Positions 4,943-32,918 of a DNA stretch of 32,918 nt are shown piece by piece. The DNA is taken from positions 1 through 32,918 of the IMG/VR virus record IMGVR_UViG_3300012920_000010; one strand, given 5' to 3'. The stretch comes from a virus. The notes below the pieces were generated by a model. It ran no database searches, was not told where the DNA came from, and saw nothing but the letters and a program-made list of their open reading frames with translations. Numbering within the stretch: position 1 is the stretch's first letter; each line of letters begins with the position of its first letter. The position numbers were made by a program, and so were the translations under genes.

Positions 4943-5341
4943 TTATACTAGTTCAAAGTGAACAGCATCGACAAAGGTATTATTAGGATCAAGCTCAAAC
5001 TCGTTAACTTTCCAGTTACCACCCCACCTCATATCAACACCTTTAACTTGTCTTGCTTTATCAAAATACTTTGCAACCTCTTGATAAAACTCAACTTCCC
5101 ATGTTATCTTACCAGCATTGTAGCATACAATGTCAACAGCTAAACCCTTACAATGCTTTGATAGTTTACCAAGTTTTGACTTACCCTCTGCTTTTAAAAG
5201 CTCGGCTCGTTCTTCACTTCGCAAACCCTCTGTGATACCAAAGTCAATATGAGATATGGATAAAGCATAATGGCATACCTCTTGCAGTTTTAAATCTACT
5301 GTTTCGAGTTTACCTTGTGAGCTTTTACCAAATCTAAACAT
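4943..5341 (-). CDS. M15-family peptidase endolysin
   Basis: The 132-residue protein has the zinc peptidase pattern of phage L-alanyl-D-glutamate or D-Ala-D-Ala endopeptidases: TEGLRSEERAELL (37-49), SKHCKGLAVDI (61-71) with zinc ligands H63 and D70, and DAVHFEL (125-131) with H128. It should cut peptidoglycan cross-links at lysis. There is no signal peptide, so it needs the holin for release. The start overlaps the portal stop as TAATG, giving translational coupling to the portal. Its position is odd: the holin-type genes lie at the far end of the tail operon (15.7-16.7 kb), so the lysis genes are split. Confidence 0.86.
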   Translation of the reverse strand: MFRFGKSSQGKLETVDLKLQEVCHYALSISHIDFGITEGLRSEERAELLKAEGKSKLGKLSKHCKGLAVDIVCYNAGKITWEVEFYQEVAKYFDKARQVKGVDMRWGGNWKVNEFELDPNNTFVDAVHFELV

Positions 5342-7506
5342 TATTTTTTAGAAGATAGTGGATGGTCTCTTGGCAGTAAGTCTAAGTCAAACTTACCACT
5401 TCTAAATTTACCTGTTCTAACAGCATACAAAAAGGCATTGACACGAGCATAAGCCCACCTATCCTCTCCTCCACTTGCTCTGACACTAGGTCTAACAGAC
5501 TGTGGATTATTTCTATATGCACCAACCCCTCTTTTAAAAGATGAGGCTAACATTCTTAAATTAACTCTTTTACCTTTTTTATCACCATGCTTTTCGTTGT
5601 GTTCTCTAACTTTTTCACGCAGACCTTTTTCTACTGCATCTGTTAGACCATAAGATCCTTTCTCCTCATCATCCTCTTCATCGTGATAACCCTTATCTCT
5701 TTCAGCCATGATTTGATCTCTTTTCTTTTTGCTCCAAGAGAAACCAGCATCTCCACCCCATAAAGCCCAAGCTATACGACCAGCACTTGGATAACCTTGC
5801 TCTCCTTTATCAAAGCCTTGACCTTGTTTGTCCACCTCATGTCTAGAAAAAAACGAATACATCCTTAACACAGTACTTGGCGACATTCTCTCTCCAGATA
5901 CAATTTGATTTGCTCTAGCAACACCAACTTGAGTTCCACCTCTTTTAAACTCTCTCCTCCAATCTAACCCTCTTCTAGCTTCCTCTTTCATTCCAGCAGT
6001 AGCTGTTAGATCAAGATCATCTAGCGCCTTGTCGTTTAGAAGTGCCTCTTCATATTCAGCGTGAGTTTTACATGGCATATATACTGTTTGTCCATCTATG
6101 TATGAATGACTGTGTATTCCATCGCAACCTATCTCTTCTGCTCTTTCTCTAGCTTCTTCTTCAGAAGTATATGTATCAACACTAACTTCTTCTTTTATTC
6201 CATAAGCTAATTCATAATCTTTTTCATTACCCTCTGCATCTACAGGCACATCATTATCTTGAGGGGATACATCTGCCTCACCAAGAGGAAATAAATTAGA
6301 TGGCACAAGTAAGCTATCAGCACCCTCTACAGGCTCAAGTCCTAATCTTTCTCTTGCCTCGTTTCGAGTTATGATTCCTGAGTTGACAGCTGTGTTTACA
6401 TTTTCATAAACCTGTCTCCTCTTTTCTGCCATTGCTGGTATAGAGTCTATATCGTATCTCAATGTTAAATCACCATCATATAATGGAACAAGCCATTCAT
6501 TTAAGTCAGATTCAATTCTTTTTAGTAGAGGAATGATTGCCTCCTCATACAATGATAATCTTGCCTCTTGCACATTGGCATAGGTTTGATCTGCAATACC
6601 AACTAACTGAGCTGGGACACCAAACACTAAAGCAATCTCTCTCGCTGACATATTCATTAATTCTAAGAAGCTCATGTCCTTAGGCGATAATCCCATCGCT
6701 TGATAATCGAAATCACCCTCTGCTAACATTACTCTTCCAGAGTTTCCAGCACCCTTAAATCTAAATTCTAGATCCTCTAATATTCTTGCTCTTTGTTCGT
6801 CTGTTAAAGTTGTAGATGCGCCAGTTTCATCTTTAGGCTCAAACTTCAACATACCACTTGGCATCATGCCATTTTTTAATAAAGCTAAGTTTGACAGCCC
6901 AGCTAAATTATGTTGATCAACATTTATTGCACTCGCCATGATCGGAGATAGCCCATAAAAATCATCCAGTGGATTCCATAATTTTATATGCTTCACATCA
7001 CTATATCCTGATGTTTGATCTACAGGGTAACTGTTTATTACTCTACCATCCATGACGTAATCGTATGCTTTAGGGAGATAACTTGTGCCTGTTTTAATAT
7101 CCATTCTATCTGGTCTTAAAATATATAACTCTCTTGGTTCTCTAAGACCCTCTGTATCTTTTATTAGATAACAGTTACCTGAAATTAGTAGATATGAAAA
7201 CAAACTGTGAAAATACTCAACACCAGATTGCATTGGGTTAGGTCTCATCAATAACGATATTAGTGGATGATTATCTAACTCTGTGTCTCCATCAAATACT
7301 TTGATATCACAAGCACTTGCATTCGTTGAAATTAAAGAAATACATTTATGAACAATAGGGTTCTCAACATATCCCTCTTTAGCTCCTGTCTTGTAATTTT
7401 TACTTGACTTGTGAGCATAGCCATTGATCTGATTTAGATATAACTTTGGTGCTTCTTTGGTTTGTAGTTGCTCATTTTTTTTAAAAAATTTATCAAATAC
7501 TCCCAT
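5341..7506 (-). CDS. HK97-family portal protein with a ~300-residue C-terminal extension
   Basis: The 721-residue product begins as a standard portal (about residues 1-405), with family segments such as NPMQSGVEYFHSL, LWNPLDDFYGLSPI and MSAREIALVFGVPAQLVG. The portal forms the dodecameric DNA entry ring and docks the terminase. Usual length is near 400. The extension holds at least three parts: a segment with EEIGCDGIHSHSYIDG and MPCKTHAEYEE; a block with GLDWRREFKRGGTQVGVARA and GYPSAGRIAWALWGGDAG; and a C-terminal block with NPQSVRPSVRASGG and a LLPRDHPLSSKK end. Comparable blocks are known to me from other phage head proteins, where they occur alone or fused to proteases. No stop or frameshift separates the parts. 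A mature head protein carrying them, or later cleavage by the prohead protease, is possible. Confidence 0.9.
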   Translation of the reverse strand: MGVFDKFFKKNEQLQTKEAPKLYLNQINGYAHKSSKNYKTGAKEGYVENPIVHKCISLISTNASACDIKVFDGDTELDNHPLISLLMRPNPMQSGVEYFHSLFSYLLISGNCYLIKDTEGLREPRELYILRPDRMDIKTGTSYLPKAYDYVMDGRVINSYPVDQTSGYSDVKHIKLWNPLDDFYGLSPIMASAINVDQHNLAGLSNLALLKNGMMPSGMLKFEPKDETGASTTLTDEQRARILEDLEFRFKGAGNSGRVMLAEGDFDYQAMGLSPKDMSFLELMNMSAREIALVFGVPAQLVGIADQTYANVQEARLSLYEEAIIPLLKRIESDLNEWLVPLYDGDLTLRYDIDSIPAMAEKRRQVYENVNTAVNSGIITRNEARERLGLEPVEGADSLLVPSNLFPLGEADVSPQDNDVPVDAEGNEKDYELAYGIKEEVSVDTYTSEEEARERAEEIGCDGIHSHSYIDGQTVYMPCKTHAEYEEALLNDKALDDLDLTATAGMKEEARRGLDWRREFKRGGTQVGVARANQIVSGERMSPSTVLRMYSFFSRHEVDKQGQGFDKGEQGYPSAGRIAWALWGGDAGFSWSKKKRDQIMAERDKGYHDEEDDEEKGSYGLTDAVEKGLREKVREHNEKHGDKKGKRVNLRMLASSFKRGVGAYRNNPQSVRPSVRASGGEDRWAYARVNAFLYAVRTGKFRSGKFDLDLLPRDHPLSSKK

Positions 7507-9115: not shown

Positions 9116-10345
9116 TTATACCACATCATTAAACTTAGCGCCAGAAGATTCTAATATTGCATCCATACCTGTGAAATCTTGCCATCTTTTTATAACTACA
9201 TCACAATATTTCTCGTCTAACTCCATTCCATAACAAACTCTGTTGACCTTTTGACAGGCTATGATTGTGCTTCCACTCCCTAAAAAACAATCCAGAACTA
9301 TATCTTCTTGCTTTGTGCTATTTTCAATTAAATATTGTAATAATCCGACAGGTTTCATTGTTGGATGTAACTTACTTCTTGTCGGTCTATCGTGTTTTAT
9401 AATGGTGGTTTGCTTTCTGTCTGAGTACCATTGGTGACTTCCCCCCTCTTTCCAGCCATATAGACATGGTTCATGTTGCCACTGGTAATCTTGCCTCCCT
9501 AGAACCATAGAGTTCTTTGACCATATTAGAGTTTGTCTTACCTTCCAGTCTGTATTTATACAAGCAGTTCTGAATGCATATCCCTCGCTGTCGCTATGCC
9601 ATATATAAAAACAACCACCCTGTTTTAAGTGAATGTTTAAATTAGAAAAGGAGTCAGATAAAAATTGAATAAAACTTTGATCTTCTTGTCTGTCATTCTG
9701 TATTTTAAGTTTATCCTTAGTCTTGCCCACATAATCTACATTGTATGGTGGATCAGTTACTACAAGGTCAGCCTTTTTATCACCAAGCAAAGTCTCATAA
9801 ATATCCATCTGAGTTGCATCTCCACATATAATTTTATGATTGCCAAGTACCCACACATCTCCTTTCTTTGTAACTGGATCTTCAGGTATCTCTGGGACAT
9901 CGTTTTCATCAGTTAAACCCTCCTCTACAGCAAAATCAGGAATTATTTTACTCAACTCTTCTGTGCTAAAGCCTGTGAGGTTTAAATCAAAATCATTGTC
10001 ATATAAGTCGGTCAAATTTAATTTTAAAAAATCTGCAGACCATTTGCTGTTTTCTGTGAGTTTATTGTCAGCAATACAATATGCCTTTTTCTGCTCTTCA
10101 GTCCACCCTTTAGCAATCAGACATGGAACTTCTTTTATACCCAGAAACTTCCCAGCCATTAGCCTTCCATGACCAGCTATGATCTCATTTTTCTCGTCTA
10201 TGAGGATTGGCATAGTCCAACCAAACTCTTGAATAGAGTTGGCGACTTGCTCTATTTGTTCCTTACTATGCTCTCTTGGATTTGAGTCATAAGGTATTAA
10301 TTCATTTATATCTTTTTTGATGTAATTTTCTGTTGCCCAGTTCAT
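9116..10345 (-). CDS. ParB-like nuclease domain fused to a DNA methyltransferase
   Basis: This 409-residue fusion has a ParB/Srx-like N-terminal domain (about 12-140) with NPREHSKEQ and the GHGR motif (58-61). An N6-adenine/N4-cytosine methyltransferase follows, with DPPY at 198-201 and the AdoMet motif FLGSGST at 354-360; this order (catalytic before AdoMet motif) fits the beta-type. HPTMKPVGLL (327-336) is also typical. The start has a strong AAGGAG site 7 nt ahead. No restriction endonuclease is adjacent, so it is likely an orphan methylase protecting phage DNA or affecting gene control or packaging. Target sequence is not predictable here. It lies between the replication and packaging genes. 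Confidence 0.92.
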   Translation of the reverse strand: MNWATENYIKKDINELIPYDSNPREHSKEQIEQVANSIQEFGWTMPILIDEKNEIIAGHGRLMAGKFLGIKEVPCLIAKGWTEEQKKAYCIADNKLTENSKWSADFLKLNLTDLYDNDFDLNLTGFSTEELSKIIPDFAVEEGLTDENDVPEIPEDPVTKKGDVWVLGNHKIICGDATQMDIYETLLGDKKADLVVTDPPYNVDYVGKTKDKLKIQNDRQEDQSFIQFLSDSFSNLNIHLKQGGCFYIWHSDSEGYAFRTACINTDWKVRQTLIWSKNSMVLGRQDYQWQHEPCLYGWKEGGSHQWYSDRKQTTIIKHDRPTRSKLHPTMKPVGLLQYLIENSTKQEDIVLDCFLGSGSTIIACQKVNRVCYGMELDEKYCDVVIKRWQDFTGMDAILESSGAKFNDVV

Positions 10346-13611: not shown

Positions 13612-13684
13612 GCTCACCCAGAAGTGGGCAATTTCATCCCCCCACATCTCCTGTATGTCTATGTCAAAGGGGGGGTGCTTTTTT
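13612..13684 (+). promoter_or_regulatory. Structured leader / attenuator before the 2OG oxygenase gene
   Basis: GCTCAC (13612-13617) can pair with GTGGGC (13624-13629). CCCCCC (13638-13643) plus ACAT pair with ATGT (13661-13664) plus GGGGGG (13669-13674), followed at 13679 by six T residues, like a terminator. GTGGG can instead pair with CCCAC at 13641-13645, so the two hairpins are mutually exclusive. The G run is also the only possible ribosome site for the next gene. It may be a terminator after the SSB-like gene or a switchable attenuator. Confidence 0.6.
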
Positions 13685-13687
13685 AAA

Positions 13688-14287
13688 ATGTCAGTTGAAT
13701 ATCTACCATCAAAGTTTTTCAAAGAAAATTGCAGACATAATCCAGCAAATGAGCCTTTCTATGGTGTTATAGAAGTTACCACAGGAAATGGAAATGCAGA
13801 GGCTTGTATGAGAGAAGCTATTGAGAATGGTAAGAAAGTAGATGTTGGAGTTCAGGGTAAGCAAACTAATATCAGAAGATTATCTAGCTGTTCAATTATA
13901 GATACAGAAGTATCTTATACTTCAAAAGTTATTATGGAGGCTGTTTCAGAATTAAATCTTATGTTCAATTATGAACTGGCATCTATACAGGAGATTTTAT
14001 ATTGTGAATATACAGTCGGTGACCATTACAAAATGCATGTTGATGTAGGAGAGGGTTACCATGCCAATAGAAAATTATCTTTAACTTGGAACTTAAATCC
14101 TGATGAATACGAGGGTGGAGAGTTATGCTTTTACCAGCCACATCTAGAGGGTGGAGTTGCAAAATACAAATCACCTAACAATAATATTATAGGATTTACT
14201 TCTTGGCTTAATCATGAAGTTAAACCAGTTACATTTGGAACGAGAAAATCAATAGTCGCATTTATAGGAGGCAAGGCATGGAAGTAA
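13688..14287 (+). CDS. 2-oxoglutarate/Fe(II)-dependent oxygenase (early gene)
   Basis: The 199-residue protein has the PKHD/prolyl-hydroxylase-like double-stranded beta-helix: the HxD iron motif in YKMHVDVGEG (H117, D119), then LSLTWNLNPDEYEGGELCFY (131-150), the second iron histidine in WLNHEVKPV (H176), and the 2-oxoglutarate arginine in GTRKSIVAF (R186). All catalytic residues are present. It should hydroxylate an unknown substrate, possibly a protein residue or a modified base. ATG 13688 follows the structured leader; there is no ordinary AGGAG site, only the G run. It is expressed with the early recombination genes, unlike the second oxygenase (24051-24722), which lies in the tail operon. 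Confidence 0.87.
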   Translation: MSVEYLPSKFFKENCRHNPANEPFYGVIEVTTGNGNAEACMREAIENGKKVDVGVQGKQTNIRRLSSCSIIDTEVSYTSKVIMEAVSELNLMFNYELASIQEILYCEYTVGDHYKMHVDVGEGYHANRKLSLTWNLNPDEYEGGELCFYQPHLEGGVAKYKSPNNNIIGFTSWLNHEVKPVTFGTRKSIVAFIGGKAWK

Positions 14288-19137: not shown

Positions 19138-20982
19138 TTAAGCACCAAATGTCCTTGCAAATGATCCACCTCTGGATCTTGCTTCTGCAACTGCACCTAA
19201 AGTTTCCTGTTTTATATCAGGCATCATATTCATTATTTCTGCTCTAACAGTTTGATTTACACCAGTTGATATATTTAAAGATTGATTGACAGTAACCCCT
19301 CCACCACCAGAAGATCCACCAACCATGCTTGGAATAAAGGTTGGGCTTGACATAATAGATGGAGATGGAGCAAAAGACATACTCCCTATACTACCAACTA
19401 GAGATGATGTGGTTGAAGATGAGTCTTTTATTTCTTTTAACTTCCTTTTTAATGCTTCCATAATTTTATCAATCACTAGTATTTGCACAGTAACTTTTAC
19501 GATTTCAATTAATAACTGCTGGAATATATTTTTCATAGCCTCTCCAAAATCCTCTCCTTTAACAACTGCCCTTGCAAAAGCCTCTGATATAGCTTCTCCT
19601 GTTCTGTCTAATGCTCTTGCTACTTCTTCTTCTAAAACATCTGCCAAATCTTTTTGTTTTTCTATAAAATCCTCCATAGCTTCTTGTGATGAATCTAATG
19701 CTTTCTGATGTTTGGTAGCATGTTTAATTGCCTGTTCTAACTCAAAATTAACCTTATCAGTTGATTTTGCAAGATCATCTTGTGCCTTTTTAAGTTCTTT
19801 TACTTTACCTGTTGTTAAATCATAAACATTTGAAACAGCCTTAAATCTTTTTTCTTGTGCTTCAATCTTTTTTTCTGTTTCCTCTATTTTTTCATTTAAA
19901 CTGTCTATTGCTTTCTCCATGCCAAGATAAGCAACAACACCAGCACCTATTCTAATAATTAATTCTTTGAAACTTTTTGATTGCATCGCTGTAACAACAT
20001 TAAGAACTGTCATTCCTTTTCTTAACTTGTTAATAGCCTCAACCATAGCTAAAACTCTACCAACAGCAAAAGCACCAACAATCAGTGAAGTGAATATTTT
20101 TAACGCAATAGCAATTTCATCAAGTGCATTTTTAAATGTTCTTATTGCTCCAGCTAATGACTCTCCTATAATATTACCGACAGCTTGTATAGTGGTTGCA
20201 TTTTCATCAAGACTTCTATTTAGATCCATTAGGCTTTGCTTAAATTCAGTAAAAAATCCATCAACAACAGAAGTTTGAAATTTAAAAAACTTATCGCCAA
20301 TCATTGATAGTGTACCACTTAGTGTCTTAGCTAATTCATCAGACGCTTTTGCAAACCTTCCCTCACCAGAAAATACCTCTTCAAATCTCTTACGAGTCTC
20401 CTCGATACTTACCTCTGCCCCAGCTTGGAATCCAAGCATGGCTCTAACACCTCTTTCTCTAAATACATCAGCACTAGCTATACCACCAGCAAAGGATCTC
20501 TGTATTTGTTCTGCTGTTTGCCTAAAATCTAGACCTGTGACTGATGCAACATTTCCTGTTATTTCTAACAGCTTTGCTAACTCCTCGCTGTCTTTAGAAA
20601 CAACAGCCAATGATCCTGAACCCTGTTGTATTTGCTCTAATGTGAATGGAACTTTTGAAGCAAAGTTGACCATCTCCTCAAATGCCTTTGCTCCCTCTTG
20701 TGCTGATCCAAATAATGCTTCTAATCTTACTTGTAAGTTTTCTATTGACATTCCAACATCAATAAAACCTTTAACTGCGACACCAGTTACAGCACCACCT
20801 ATGATTGCACCAAACTTTAAGAAAGTTGCTCCAGCTTTATCAAGACCTTGATTTATTTTATTGAATTGATTATCAAAATTTGACGATACTTTATTTACTT
20901 CATTGTTTGCTTGTGCCATACCTCTTTTGAGGTCTGACAAGTCAGCTTCTATACGAACAATTAACTTATCTAAATCTGCCAT
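19138..20982 (-). CDS. Tail tape measure protein
   Basis: The 614-residue protein sets tail length. Its N-terminus has helical heptads, then glycine/alanine-rich hydrophobic stretches (FLKFGAIIGGAVTGVAVKGF, about 51-71; TSLIVGAFAVGRVLAMV, about 298-314), long coiled coils in the middle (about 350-470) and a Ser/Gly-rich end. The RSFAGGIASADVFRERGVRA part is typical of tape measures. At roughly 1.5 Å per residue the tail would be about 90 nm, short for a siphovirus. The start abuts the stop of the frameshifted tail chaperone. Confidence 0.9.
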   Translation of the reverse strand: MADLDKLIVRIEADLSDLKRGMAQANNEVNKVSSNFDNQFNKINQGLDKAGATFLKFGAIIGGAVTGVAVKGFIDVGMSIENLQVRLEALFGSAQEGAKAFEEMVNFASKVPFTLEQIQQGSGSLAVVSKDSEELAKLLEITGNVASVTGLDFRQTAEQIQRSFAGGIASADVFRERGVRAMLGFQAGAEVSIEETRKRFEEVFSGEGRFAKASDELAKTLSGTLSMIGDKFFKFQTSVVDGFFTEFKQSLMDLNRSLDENATTIQAVGNIIGESLAGAIRTFKNALDEIAIALKIFTSLIVGAFAVGRVLAMVEAINKLRKGMTVLNVVTAMQSKSFKELIIRIGAGVVAYLGMEKAIDSLNEKIEETEKKIEAQEKRFKAVSNVYDLTTGKVKELKKAQDDLAKSTDKVNFELEQAIKHATKHQKALDSSQEAMEDFIEKQKDLADVLEEEVARALDRTGEAISEAFARAVVKGEDFGEAMKNIFQQLLIEIVKVTVQILVIDKIMEALKRKLKEIKDSSSTTSSLVGSIGSMSFAPSPSIMSSPTFIPSMVGGSSGGGGVTVNQSLNISTGVNQTVRAEIMNMMPDIKQETLGAVAEARSRGGSFARTFGA

Positions 20983-21542
20983 CTAAAAATCTGGATACCT
21001 CTCTTTTAACTTTTCAACATCACTTGCAGTCATAGGTTTCGACTCTTTTTTACCAGAATGAAACTCTTTAAAACCTTTAATTGATAATGTTATCTCATTA
21101 ATCGACATTTGCCAAAAGGTATTTGAGTCAATACCCATCATGCCTTGACAAACTTCAATCCATCTTTCGACAGGGAGTGGTTCTAAATCTTCTAAGTCTC
21201 CGACTTTTTTTCAGAGTCTACCTCTTCGTCAGTATCTATATTTAATGCTAATGTAACCAATTCACCAGCAGTTTTGATTGCTTCAATTAATCCTATTTCA
21301 CTAACGATAGCTTTGACATCTGTTTCTTTAATATCATTGCCACCACCTCGTAGTCCATAATATATAACTTGAATTACTTGAGATAAAGTCATGTCGGCAC
21401 TAGCTAACTTGTTTCCAACTTTTAAGATGGAACAATCAAGAGCCGATTCTACTTTCATGATGGTGTCTAATGACATCCTCGCCTTATACTCCTTTCCATT
21501 AAGAAGAAGTATTTTTTCGGCTCTTAACTTGTTTATGCTCAT
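20983..21542 (-). CDS. Tail assembly chaperone, short form plus -1 frameshift extension
   Basis: The zero-frame product is 116 residues (21542 to 21192), resembling GTA-type tail assembly chaperones (MSINKLRAEKILLLNGKEYK; QVIYYGLRGGGN). At A-AAA-AAG (21210-21204) a -1 shift would add 73 residues: VGDLEDLEPLPVERWIEVCQ and then GMMGIDSNTFWQMSINEITL, ending ERYPDF with a stop at 20983, directly before the tape measure. The extension matches the small chaperone-type proteins seen before tape measures (FW-x-MS-x-E motif). This gives a short 116-residue and a long 186-residue form, like lambda gpG and gpGT. These proteins hold the tape measure while tube subunits assemble. Confidence 0.85.
21204..21210 (-). 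other. -1 programmed ribosomal frameshift site
   Basis: On the coding strand the heptamer is A-AAA-AAG, the strongest known bacterial slippery sequence (also used in dnaX). Frame 0 reads GAA AAA AAG TCG; after slipping the next codon is GTC. An internal AGAGG lies about 9-10 nt upstream, a known type of stimulator, and AAGTC-GGA-GACTT can form a small hairpin at the site. The -1 frame stays open for 73 codons to the tape measure start. Confidence 0.82.
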
Positions 21543-21756
21543 TGTTATCTCCTTTTGGTCTGTCTACTTGCATTCTAATAACTTCTGATCTTCCTCCAAC
21601 ATCAGTAGCCCAGAGCATAGTACACTTTTCACCATTTACAGTTACTGTAGAAACTTCATCCCATTTTTCAAAGAATGGAACTTCTACCTCATAGCCAAAA
21701 GGAACATCATTAACATGTGCCTCCAGCTTATTTTTGCCAATTATAACTTCACTCAT
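21499..21756 (-). CDS. Small protein between tail tube and tail chaperone genes
   Basis: The 85-residue protein is beta-rich (MSEVIIGKNKLEAHVNDVPF at the start, VSTVTVNGEKCTMLWATD in the middle) with a basic C-terminal tail KQVKSRKNTSS. AAGGAGT lies upstream. It overlaps the tail chaperone start by 44 bp, so the two are coupled. Its position suggests a tail tube or assembly accessory; no family assigned. Confidence 0.72.
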   Translation of the reverse strand: MSEVIIGKNKLEAHVNDVPFGYEVEVPFFEKWDEVSTVTVNGEKCTMLWATDVGGRSEVIRMQVDRPKGDNNEHKQVKSRKNTSS

Positions 21757-21769
21757 TATTTACTCCTTG

Positions 21770-22183
21770 CTATACACTAGCAATAGTTATTGTCCCAGCA
21801 CTTTCAAAAGTCATTGAATACATAACTGCATCAGTATATGAACCACTATACTCTGCTGTCACTAGCATAAACGCTCCAGTAAAGGTTTTGAAATCAGGGA
21901 CAAGAAATTGCAAGTTAGTAAATGAACTCGCATCTAATAAGCCGATTGCTGTTCCCTCACTTGCTGAATCTGTAAATACTCCTGATCCTGTAATACTAAA
22001 TGACTTCACACCACCATGCGCTAAAAGTGTTCTCACCCTTGCACTATCTTTATTGGTGATGTCAATTTGCTCTTGGTTGATTGAGATAGATGTATCTCTC
22101 ATCCCAGCTAATGTTGTAAAAGTTTCTGGCGATCCTCCATTTCCAATTTTAACAAGGATGTCTGTTCCTTTTTGACTAGCCAC
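21770..22183 (-). CDS. Major tail tube protein
   Basis: The 137-residue protein begins MASQKGTDILVKIGNGGSPE and has MRDTSISINQEQIDITNKDS and GVKSFSITGSGVFTDS, close to the tail tube proteins of GTA and TP901-1-like phages. It should polymerise as hexamer rings around the tape measure. Start is GTG, supported by GGAGG 6 nt upstream. It lies between the connector genes and the tail chaperone, the standard order. Confidence 0.88.
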   Translation of the reverse strand: MASQKGTDILVKIGNGGSPETFTTLAGMRDTSISINQEQIDITNKDSARVRTLLAHGGVKSFSITGSGVFTDSASEGTAIGLLDASSFTNLQFLVPDFKTFTGAFMLVTAEYSGSYTDAVMYSMTFESAGTITIASV

Positions 22184-23378: not shown

Positions 23379-24051
23379 TATATAAACCTCCAAAAGATGC
23401 AGTTCCCCTGAATGGGTTAGTTGAGAATTGAATAATTTTATATGGTCTCAATAATTGTATTGCTGATGGAGGAGGTAATATCGCTTTACCATCTAAACCA
23501 TCACCTCTATTTTCAAACAAATGCGAGGCATATAACAAACAAGCATTTCTTATATCTGCTGGAACATCAGTCCTTCCACCATATCCAGCAACATATTGTA
23601 TCTCAAATGCATCAGCTACTCGTAAACCTGTCGGATAACTTTCACCCTGTCTAAGAGTTAATTTAGCTGGTGAGGATGCTGTACTAACATAATATTTGCT
23701 AGATGCAAAAGTAGTGGCTGAATCACTATCATCGTAACTTTTAAAATGAGTAACACTTGCAACAGGCGAGAAAGGTAATAGTATTGATCGTCTATTAATA
23801 TCTTGATCTATGCCGACATACTTTCCCTCTTCTATCACTCTGTCTGCTTGATATATACTATCAATAAATAACTGTATTGTTTGAGTTGTTAAACTTCTTT
23901 GTGTGTAGTTTTTAGCCCAGTTATGTACAGTAACTCTAATGATATCCAATGTATCATTATCATCTGTGCCTGTGATTTTTAAGTGATTTTTTAAATCATC
24001 AGTATTTACTACATGCTCTGTTTCAGCTGTATGTATTTTTATACCAGCCAT
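23371..24051 (-). CDS. Head-tail connector protein (phiE125 gp8 / HK97 gp6-like)
   Basis: The 226-residue protein starts MAGIKIHTAETEHVVNTDDL; the block NHLKITGTDDNDTLDIIRV (about 22-40) is typical of connectors that form a ring under the portal. Later elements include SKYYVSTASSPAKLTLRQGE and VQYVAGYGG-type text (QYVAGYGGRTDVPADIRNAC). ATG 24051 overlaps the previous stop as TAATG. It begins the connector-tail tube block. Confidence 0.85.
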   Translation of the reverse strand: MAGIKIHTAETEHVVNTDDLKNHLKITGTDDNDTLDIIRVTVHNWAKNYTQRSLTTQTIQLFIDSIYQADRVIEEGKYVGIDQDINRRSILLPFSPVASVTHFKSYDDSDSATTFASSKYYVSTASSPAKLTLRQGESYPTGLRVADAFEIQYVAGYGGRTDVPADIRNACLLYASHLFENRGDGLDGKAILPPPSAIQLLRPYKIIQFSTNPFRGTASFGGLYSV

Positions 24052-24722
24052 TATCTTCTCTCCCAATTATAAAAATGTGTAATTCCATATCTGCCATATC
24101 CAAATGGAATATCATCTTTAGATGATACCTTTGTTACTTCATGCTGTAAATAACTCGGAAACAATAACATACGATTAGATATACATTCAATCGTTGCATC
24201 AATAGGAACGATCCTTGTGTTACCACCAAAGAACCTCTTAGGTTGTTTGTATAACCATATTAAACAAGTAAACTGTGTGCCATCATGATGAGGCTTATAA
24301 TATTTCCCTTTGTCGTAATATCCTATAAATGTAGAGTCAGTATTAGTGCCGATAAAATTATGATGATGTAAGGGCATTGCCTCTTTTACAAAATCATGAA
24401 ATTCTGGACTTCTCTGTTTATACATAGACCTTAATATTGGAGATATCTCACTACCCTTTTCTGTGTAAAAATCCCACATATGGAATCTATAAGCATTTGA
24501 TTTTGCTTTTCCATCTTTATCTCTTGCTACTGCTGAATTATTGCTCTCTGCATTTTCTATATTATCAACAGGCTGTGTTCCATACATTTCTAATTCAAGC
24601 CATACAGCTTCCAGTTCTTTTTCTGTGTACCAATTATCAATGACAAGATAAGGAGCCTCTTTCTTTTGATTACAAATTTTCACATCCCAGTCTTGTTTTA
24701 TTTTTTGAACTACTAAGCTCAT
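24051..24722 (-). CDS. Second 2-oxoglutarate/Fe(II)-dependent oxygenase (structural operon)
   Basis: The 223-residue protein has iron ligands in YKPHHDGTQF (H145 and D147) and LQHEV (H194), and a candidate 2-oxoglutarate arginine R211 in GYGRYGITHFYNW. GGNTRIVP and LLFPSYLQHEV are typical of the phage prolyl-4-hydroxylase-like group. It differs clearly in sequence and layout from the early oxygenase at 13688. It is coupled to the cupin gene upstream (4-bp overlap) and to the connector gene downstream. Possible substrates are tail or receptor-binding proteins, or host proteins late in infection; unknown. Confidence 0.86.
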   Translation of the reverse strand: MSLVVQKIKQDWDVKICNQKKEAPYLVIDNWYTEKELEAVWLELEMYGTQPVDNIENAESNNSAVARDKDGKAKSNAYRFHMWDFYTEKGSEISPILRSMYKQRSPEFHDFVKEAMPLHHHNFIGTNTDSTFIGYYDKGKYYKPHHDGTQFTCLIWLYKQPKRFFGGNTRIVPIDATIECISNRMLLFPSYLQHEVTKVSSKDDIPFGYGRYGITHFYNWERR

Positions 24723-32539: not shown

Positions 32540-32918
32540 TTATGCTGAAATGTTTTGTAGACGAATTGCCTCTGCTAGTACAACAGCTCCACCTACTCTC
32601 TTACGAGCCACATATCTTACATTTCCTGATGTAGCTTGAGAGAATGGATCACGAAGTACAGACATCTGAACCCTGTCCACGATTGTATATGCTCTATTAA
32701 AATCACCAAAAGCGATTGGTTTAGCACTTCCACCAATATCTGGCATATCAGTTGCTAATACATAAGGATATCCAAGAATTGTGTTTGGAGCTCCTCCAAC
32801 TAATGTCATGCCAACATGGAAGATTTTTTGACCTTCGCCATCTTCAAGTTTTAATAAAGAACCAAATGTTCCTCTATTCATTACGAATCTTGAGTTAGAT
32901 AAATAATCTGACTTAATA
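32540..32918 (-). CDS. HK97-fold major capsid protein, C-terminal part (wraps to base 956)
   Basis: The open frame runs from the window end to a stop at 32540. It contains AFGDFNRAYTIVDRVQMSVL, DPFSQATSGNVRYVARKRVG and the end VLAEAIRLQNISA, which are the P-domain/A-domain signatures of HK97 capsids. Positions 32796-32918 duplicate 123-1 of the other part. With the join the gene is 1212 nt. The Met nearest the end (32881) is not the true start. Confidence 0.92.
   Translation of the reverse strand, partial: IKSDYLSNSRFVMNRGTFGSLLKLEDGEGQKIFHVGMTLVGGAPNTILGYPYVLATDMPDIGGSAKPIAFGDFNRAYTIVDRVQMSVLRDPFSQATSGNVRYVARKRVGGAVVLAEAIRLQNISA
32796..32918. repeat. Terminal direct repeat, right copy
   Basis: Identical to bases 1-123. 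The repeat is located inside the capsid gene, not at a packaging or replication site, so it most likely shows overlap of a circular assembly. Confidence 0.93.

Follow-up and report, generated by a model that had tools for sequence, protein, structure and literature searches.

In a marine siphovirus-like phage that is uncultured, the gene for the tail assembly chaperone very probably carries a programmed -1 ribosomal frameshift of the lambda G/GT type. A frameshift of this kind is already known as a conserved feature of dsDNA phage tail chaperones (Xu, Hendrix and Duda 2004, as cited in PMC3711429; review, PMC5009743), and the arrangement is confirmed here for a large uncultured group in which the slip sites change. 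The window, that is, the whole stretch of 32,918 nucleotides that was analyzed, is an IMG/VR virus record of 35% G+C. A direct terminal repeat of 123 bases was found at its two ends (1-123 and 32796-32918), and therefore the genome is very likely complete; the record would then have been opened inside the major capsid gene.

Organization of the tail module

The tail module is coded on the minus strand throughout, a location left unstated in the preliminary description of this DNA. The order of the genes is tail completion protein, tail tube, an 85-residue ORF, G, T in the -1 frame, tape measure protein and distal tail protein (Table 1). A family search with the 85-residue ORF gave no match.

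Table 1. Features of the G/T locus and its neighbors, in window coordinates
Feature	Position	Strand	Evidence
Gene G, 116 aa: tail assembly chaperone in its short (unshifted) form	21192..21542	-	ORF; Pfam PF11836; AlphaFold; BFVD
Slippery heptamer A_AAA_AAG, A-run of 7, in phase with G, codons 111-113	21204..21210	-	Sequence; homologous heptamer in relatives
TGA in -1 frame, abuts heptamer; 5' bound of the shift	21211..21213	-	Sequence
TAG, zero-frame stop of G, starts 9 nt past heptamer; 3' bound of the shift	21192..21194	-	Sequence
T extension, -1 frame, 73 codons + TAG, Phage_TAC_6-like domain	20983..21204	-	PF09550 via relatives; conservation; dN/dS; model
AGAGG, candidate internal stimulator (Shine-Dalgarno-like), 10 nt 5' of heptamer	21221..21225	-	Sequence; dnaX spacing
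Tape measure protein gene, ATG at 20982	19138..20982	-	PF20155 TMP_3, E 8e-13; tblastn matches among annotated tape measure proteins of pelagiphages
Tail tube (major tail) protein gene, upstream of G	21770..22183	-	PF06199 Phage_tail_2, E 1.2e-30
85-aa ORF between tail tube gene and G; overlaps G start by 44 bases	21499..21756	-	

The 3' end of G reads ...GAC TCT GAA AAA AAG TCG GAG ACT TAG, in which the codons GAA AAA AAG occupy 21212-21204, and the -1 frame reads TGA AAA AAA GTC GGA GAC ... GAT TTT TAG. The codons of T begin at 21204 with GTC GGA GAC and end with GAT TTT and the stop TAG (20985-20983); the last coding base is 20986, and the stop abuts the tape measure ATG with no base between them. 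The preliminary description had placed A-AAA-AAG in the correct phase near the end of the 116-residue gene and had followed the -1 frame for 73 codons up to the base before the tape measure gene; both placements were accurate. The 186 residues given there for the longer product also agree with the length computed from the sequence for the predicted G-T fusion (113 + 73), and the peptide across the predicted shift junction would be EKK-VGDLEDLEPLPVER. Since the -1 TGA lies directly 5' of the heptamer and the zero-frame TAG 9 nt 3' of it, the change of frame is confined to that short stretch.

Per codon of the window's genes, the frequency of in-phase heptamers is 0.78% for all kinds together and 0.13% for A_AAA_AA[A/G]. 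When the amino acids were held fixed by synonymous codon shuffling, the window heptamer gave p = 0.36, a weak single-window test because Glu-Lys-Lys favors runs of A. A heptamer within the few codons of the overlap is thus uncommon by chance but alone not decisive, and it is conservation that decides.

Identity of G and T

G was assigned to Pfam PF11836 (Phage_TAC_11/GTA-gp10) with an E value of 1.2e-13 and 51.4 bits, above the gathering cut-off of 27.8. G and T were modelled as separate chains. The AlphaFold model of G, with a mean pLDDT of about 89-96 over residues 11-100, consists of a beta hairpin and five helices, followed by a disordered C-terminal tail (residues 104-116) in which the slip site falls. 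In BFVD, the fold matched phage proteins whose annotation is tail assembly chaperone (best E 5e-5). Comparison of G with the PDB gave nothing significant, and searches of the PDB by sequence and by Foldseek returned no significant match. The family, the predicted fold and the position between the tail tube gene and the tape measure gene support the assignment of G as a tail assembly chaperone.

A Pfam search of the 73-residue extension had been suggested as a check, and its outcome was divided: the window T aligned with PF09550 (Phage_TAC_6) at E 0.002, but its 18.9 bits fell below the gathering cut-off of 23.4, whereas alignable relatives of T scored 28.6, 44.9 and 50.2 bits. The window T is therefore described as Phage_TAC_6-like, its membership resting on these relatives. 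The predicted model of T has four helices with a mean pLDDT of 81. The median dN/dS of T was 0.28 (812 pairs), indicating purifying selection. As judged from its sequence, the T extension is a real, conserved protein domain.

Conservation of the slip site

The survey comprised 141 distinct homologous G/T boundaries taken from viral contig scans (IMG/VR) and phage records. At 140 of these, a -1 T domain was found together with an in-phase X_XXY_YYZ heptamer inside the overlap: A_AAA_AAA (69), G_GGA_AAG (34), A_AAA_AAG (21), G_GGA_AAC (11), C_CCT_TTA (4) and C_CCA_AAG (1). In the sole exception (L205), G is damaged, interrupted by an internal deletion or a change of frame; when read in the frame of the intact G tail, A_AAA_AAG and the -1 T are present. 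The earlier proposal had been made to depend on relatives keeping both the heptamer and the downstream frame, and all but this one of the 141 keep them.

Synonymous codon shuffling with the amino acids kept predicts 58.6 heptamers, against the 140 observed. For the heptamers containing G or C, shuffling predicts 7-24%, and they were observed in all cases. The force of the argument lies in this family-wide survey, above all in the G- and C-containing heptamers. Furthermore, on a tree built from G and T with the slip-site columns excluded, the motif class switches 15 times or more and the arrangement is never lost. Taken with the family, the fold and the position of the gene, the -1 heptamer conserved at 140 of 141 loci makes it highly probable that two forms of the tail chaperone arise by a -1 frameshift, as had been put forward.

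The apparent split could also have arisen artificially, through an indel introduced into the A-run during sequencing or assembly that divides one true frame, or be the mark of a decayed gene. Homopolymers are error-prone and L205 does carry a damaged G; however, the same -1 relation recurs at 140 distinct loci from many samples, some of them with slip sites that contain no homopolymer, and T is under purifying selection. An assembly error is refuted by this conservation, and an artefact of either sort is exceedingly improbable.

A scan of genome_contigs for the TAC_6 domain returned one distant Streptomyces locus only, and the survey is one of viral contigs and phage records. On one homologous protein, the family presents a graded set of natural slip sites (A6 to A10, GGGAAAR, CCCTTTA and CCCAAAG), which is good material for testing the trade-offs between slip-site strength, Shine-Dalgarno (SD) stimulators and transcriptional slippage.

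Absence of a separate start for T

T might be a separate gene, expressed from its own start or by termination-reinitiation at the stop of G, so that no fusion is made. Relatives in GenBank (L006-L008) are annotated with a distinct, shorter T, and in L008 there is an ATGA overlap. The first 20 codons of the window T, however, contain no start codon, in agreement with the preliminary description; the first ATG is codon 21 or 22, within the conserved domain, and starting there would cost the conserved residues LPVERWIEVCQG. Moreover, ATG, GTG and TTG are all absent ahead of the conserved T core in 123 of 140 loci, the window among them, and a separate gene leaves the excess of heptamers unexplained. 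An independent start was rejected on these three grounds and is considered very unlikely.

In two of the GenBank relatives (L006, 1516-1701; L007, 1543-1707), the annotation makes T a gene of its own with a start inside the conserved core, and T is truncated. Both have a G_GGA_AAC heptamer and a -1 frame that mark T as an extension of the preceding gene. It had been predicted that ordinary gene callers would miss the extension, and this is borne out by the truncation in these two relatives and by the lack of annotation in the pelagiphages HTVC111P and HTVC112P. Gene callers routinely miss the T half or mis-start it; once the shift is annotated, the tail module is complete for a group of marine phages that is abundant and uncultured.

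Proposed mechanism of the shift

In the mechanism that we infer, the efficiency of the shift would leave the majority of ribosomes producing the 116-residue chaperone G. In a minority, the lysyl-tRNAs on AAA-AAG of A_AAA_AAG would slip back one base and re-pair on AAA-AAA, and the shifted ribosomes would bypass the zero-frame TAG to yield the 186-residue G-T fusion. In E. coli, few heptamers are as prone to shifting as A_AAA_AAG (PMC5009743), and tandem slippage, as read from the motifs, fits every heptamer class that was found. The slip would fall in the predicted disordered C-terminal tail of G, so that T would be joined through a flexible linker. In lambda, it is G that binds to the tape measure protein, and the tail tube subunit is recruited by the T part of the rare fusion (PMC5009743). 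By analogy, G may coat the tape measure protein of this phage, and T of the few fusions may recruit its tail tube subunit.

Possible stimulatory elements

The AGAGG upstream of the heptamer had been called a stimulator. Its position stood, since the distance of 10 nt to the heptamer is the spacing found in E. coli dnaX, but its strength did not: the predicted anti-SD pairing was -7.2 kcal/mol as compared with a mean of -6.8 for synonymous shuffles (30th percentile), and most close relatives are without the element. AGAGG is no stronger than Glu/Asp-rich codons predict, and a role as stimulator is possible. No downstream hairpin or stem-loop was found in the window (z of 0.69, and 1.74 on a 60-nt stretch), nor was a consistent downstream structure seen across 54 loci (mean z -0.21). 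The site resembles E. coli dnaX in its A_AAA_AAG and in a possible SD-like element about 10 nt upstream. Unlike the window, dnaX has a downstream hairpin, and its shift shortens the product, whereas the shift proposed here lengthens it.

Length of the A-run and possible transcriptional slippage

Among the loci with A-runs, 59 have A9, 6 have A10, 4 have A8, 17 have A7 and 4 have A6. At nine A's, efficient slippage of bacterial RNA polymerase in vivo is reported, and Thermus dnaX makes use of this length (PMC5009743). It is therefore conceivable that RNA polymerase inserts one A too many at the run, so that some of the mRNAs carry G-T as a single frame. Besides the A9 of 59 relatives and the A10 of 6, this reading draws on the serine that follows A_AAA_AAA, which is AGY in 49 of 49 cases and never TCN although the genome share of AGY is 40%, a count that ignores shared ancestry; the ninth A is therefore kept although it lies outside the heptamer. 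The A9 loci are also mostly without an SD-like element. The run in the window, however, is only 7 long and is closed by G, short of the nine or more A/T bases of a polymerase slippage site, and many relatives have GGGAAAR, CCCTTTA or CCCAAAG, in which there is no homopolymer and tandem tRNA slippage is feasible. Transcriptional slippage is accordingly an improbable explanation for the window, and ribosomal frameshifting is preferred.

An SD-like match of at least 4 nt was present upstream in all 21 A6/A7 loci, the window included (mean -8.7 kcal/mol), but in only 15 of the 59 loci with A9 and in none of the 6 with A10 (mean about -1.6). The difference between A6/A7 and A9/A10 (21/21 vs 15/65) gave a Mann-Whitney p of 5e-11 on pairing energy. 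A sign test of run length against SD found only 3 independent pairs on well-supported branches, which puts significance out of reach. The window and its sister locus L043 each combine A7 with an SD-like element and are nested in a 64-member clade (support 100) whose other 62 members are A9 or A10. The pattern across the family is a new point of this analysis; it suggests a correlation between short A-runs and SD-like elements and is offered as a hypothesis, with Glu-rich tails giving SD-like strings for free. It is conceivable, though rather doubtful, that one homologous chaperone gene alternates between RNA-polymerase (or unassisted) slippage at A9 with no stimulator and ribosomal slippage at A6/A7 helped by an internal SD. 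If so, a recent change from one mode to the other would be seen in the window and L043, and these phages would parallel the contrast between the dnaX genes of E. coli and Thermus. Thermus thermophilus dnaX, in which transcriptional slippage takes place on a 9-base run (PMC5009743), is matched by the A9 at the homologous place in most close relatives, but not by the A7 of the window.

Cultured relatives

The tape measure proteins of the pelagiphages HTVC111P, HTVC112P and HTVC026P are 36-60% identical to that of the window over part of their length, and that of roseophage CRP-406 is 28% identical over part. The chaperones of these four phages had no significant match to Phage_TAC_11 and are different proteins. 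Just before the stop, HTVC111P and HTVC112P have A_AAA_AAG, HTVC026P has A_AAA_AAA/C and CRP-406 has A_AAA_AAC, and in all four an unannotated -1 extension reaches the tape measure gene. Thus the chaperone differs from that of the window, and the apparent frameshift design is kept. The unannotated extension lies at 1870-2047 of L123 (HTVC111P, MN698245) and at 1870-2044 of L125 (HTVC112P, MN698246), where the antisense 'hypothetical' genes HTVC111P_gp45 and HTVC112P_gp41, probably spurious, are annotated over it; in HTVC026P (L126) and CRP-406 (L127) the stretch is left empty. In Kolga EXVC016S (L124), the tape measure region is 53% identical to that of the window, the gene just before it has neither a slip site nor a -1 extension, and the chaperones were not found.

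Comparison with known systems

As in lambda gpG/gpGT, the gene stands right before the tape measure gene, an X_XXY_YYZ heptamer lies near its 3' end, and the -1 extension has no start of its own and is predicted to be in the minority product. The window differs from lambda in its families (GTA-gp10/TAC_11 plus TAC_6) and in its slip site, A_AAA_AAG. A -1 shift in the chaperone that precedes the tape measure gene is also present in phiCbK gp93/gp94, where the slip site is AAAAAAC and that of the relative Colossus is GGGAAAC, so that it varies among relatives there as well (PMC3556154). The window slip site, A_AAA_AAG, is unlike that of phiCbK, and the likeness is one of design. RcGTA g10 belongs, like the window G, to pfam11836, and a second chaperone, g10.5, is named beside it (tail chaperones 1 and 2), but no frameshift is mentioned there (PMC11409702).

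Other genes in the window

Two different 2OG-Fe(II) oxygenase genes (PF13640) were observed, one among the early genes (13655-14287, plus strand) and the other beside the head-tail module (24051-24722, minus strand). The portal protein ORF (5341-7506, minus strand) continues for about 330 extra residues C-terminal to the Phage_portal domain, with a match to DUF3721. In addition, the ORF at 9116-10345 (minus strand) has a ParB N-terminal domain fused with a DNA methylase (N6_N4_Mtase).
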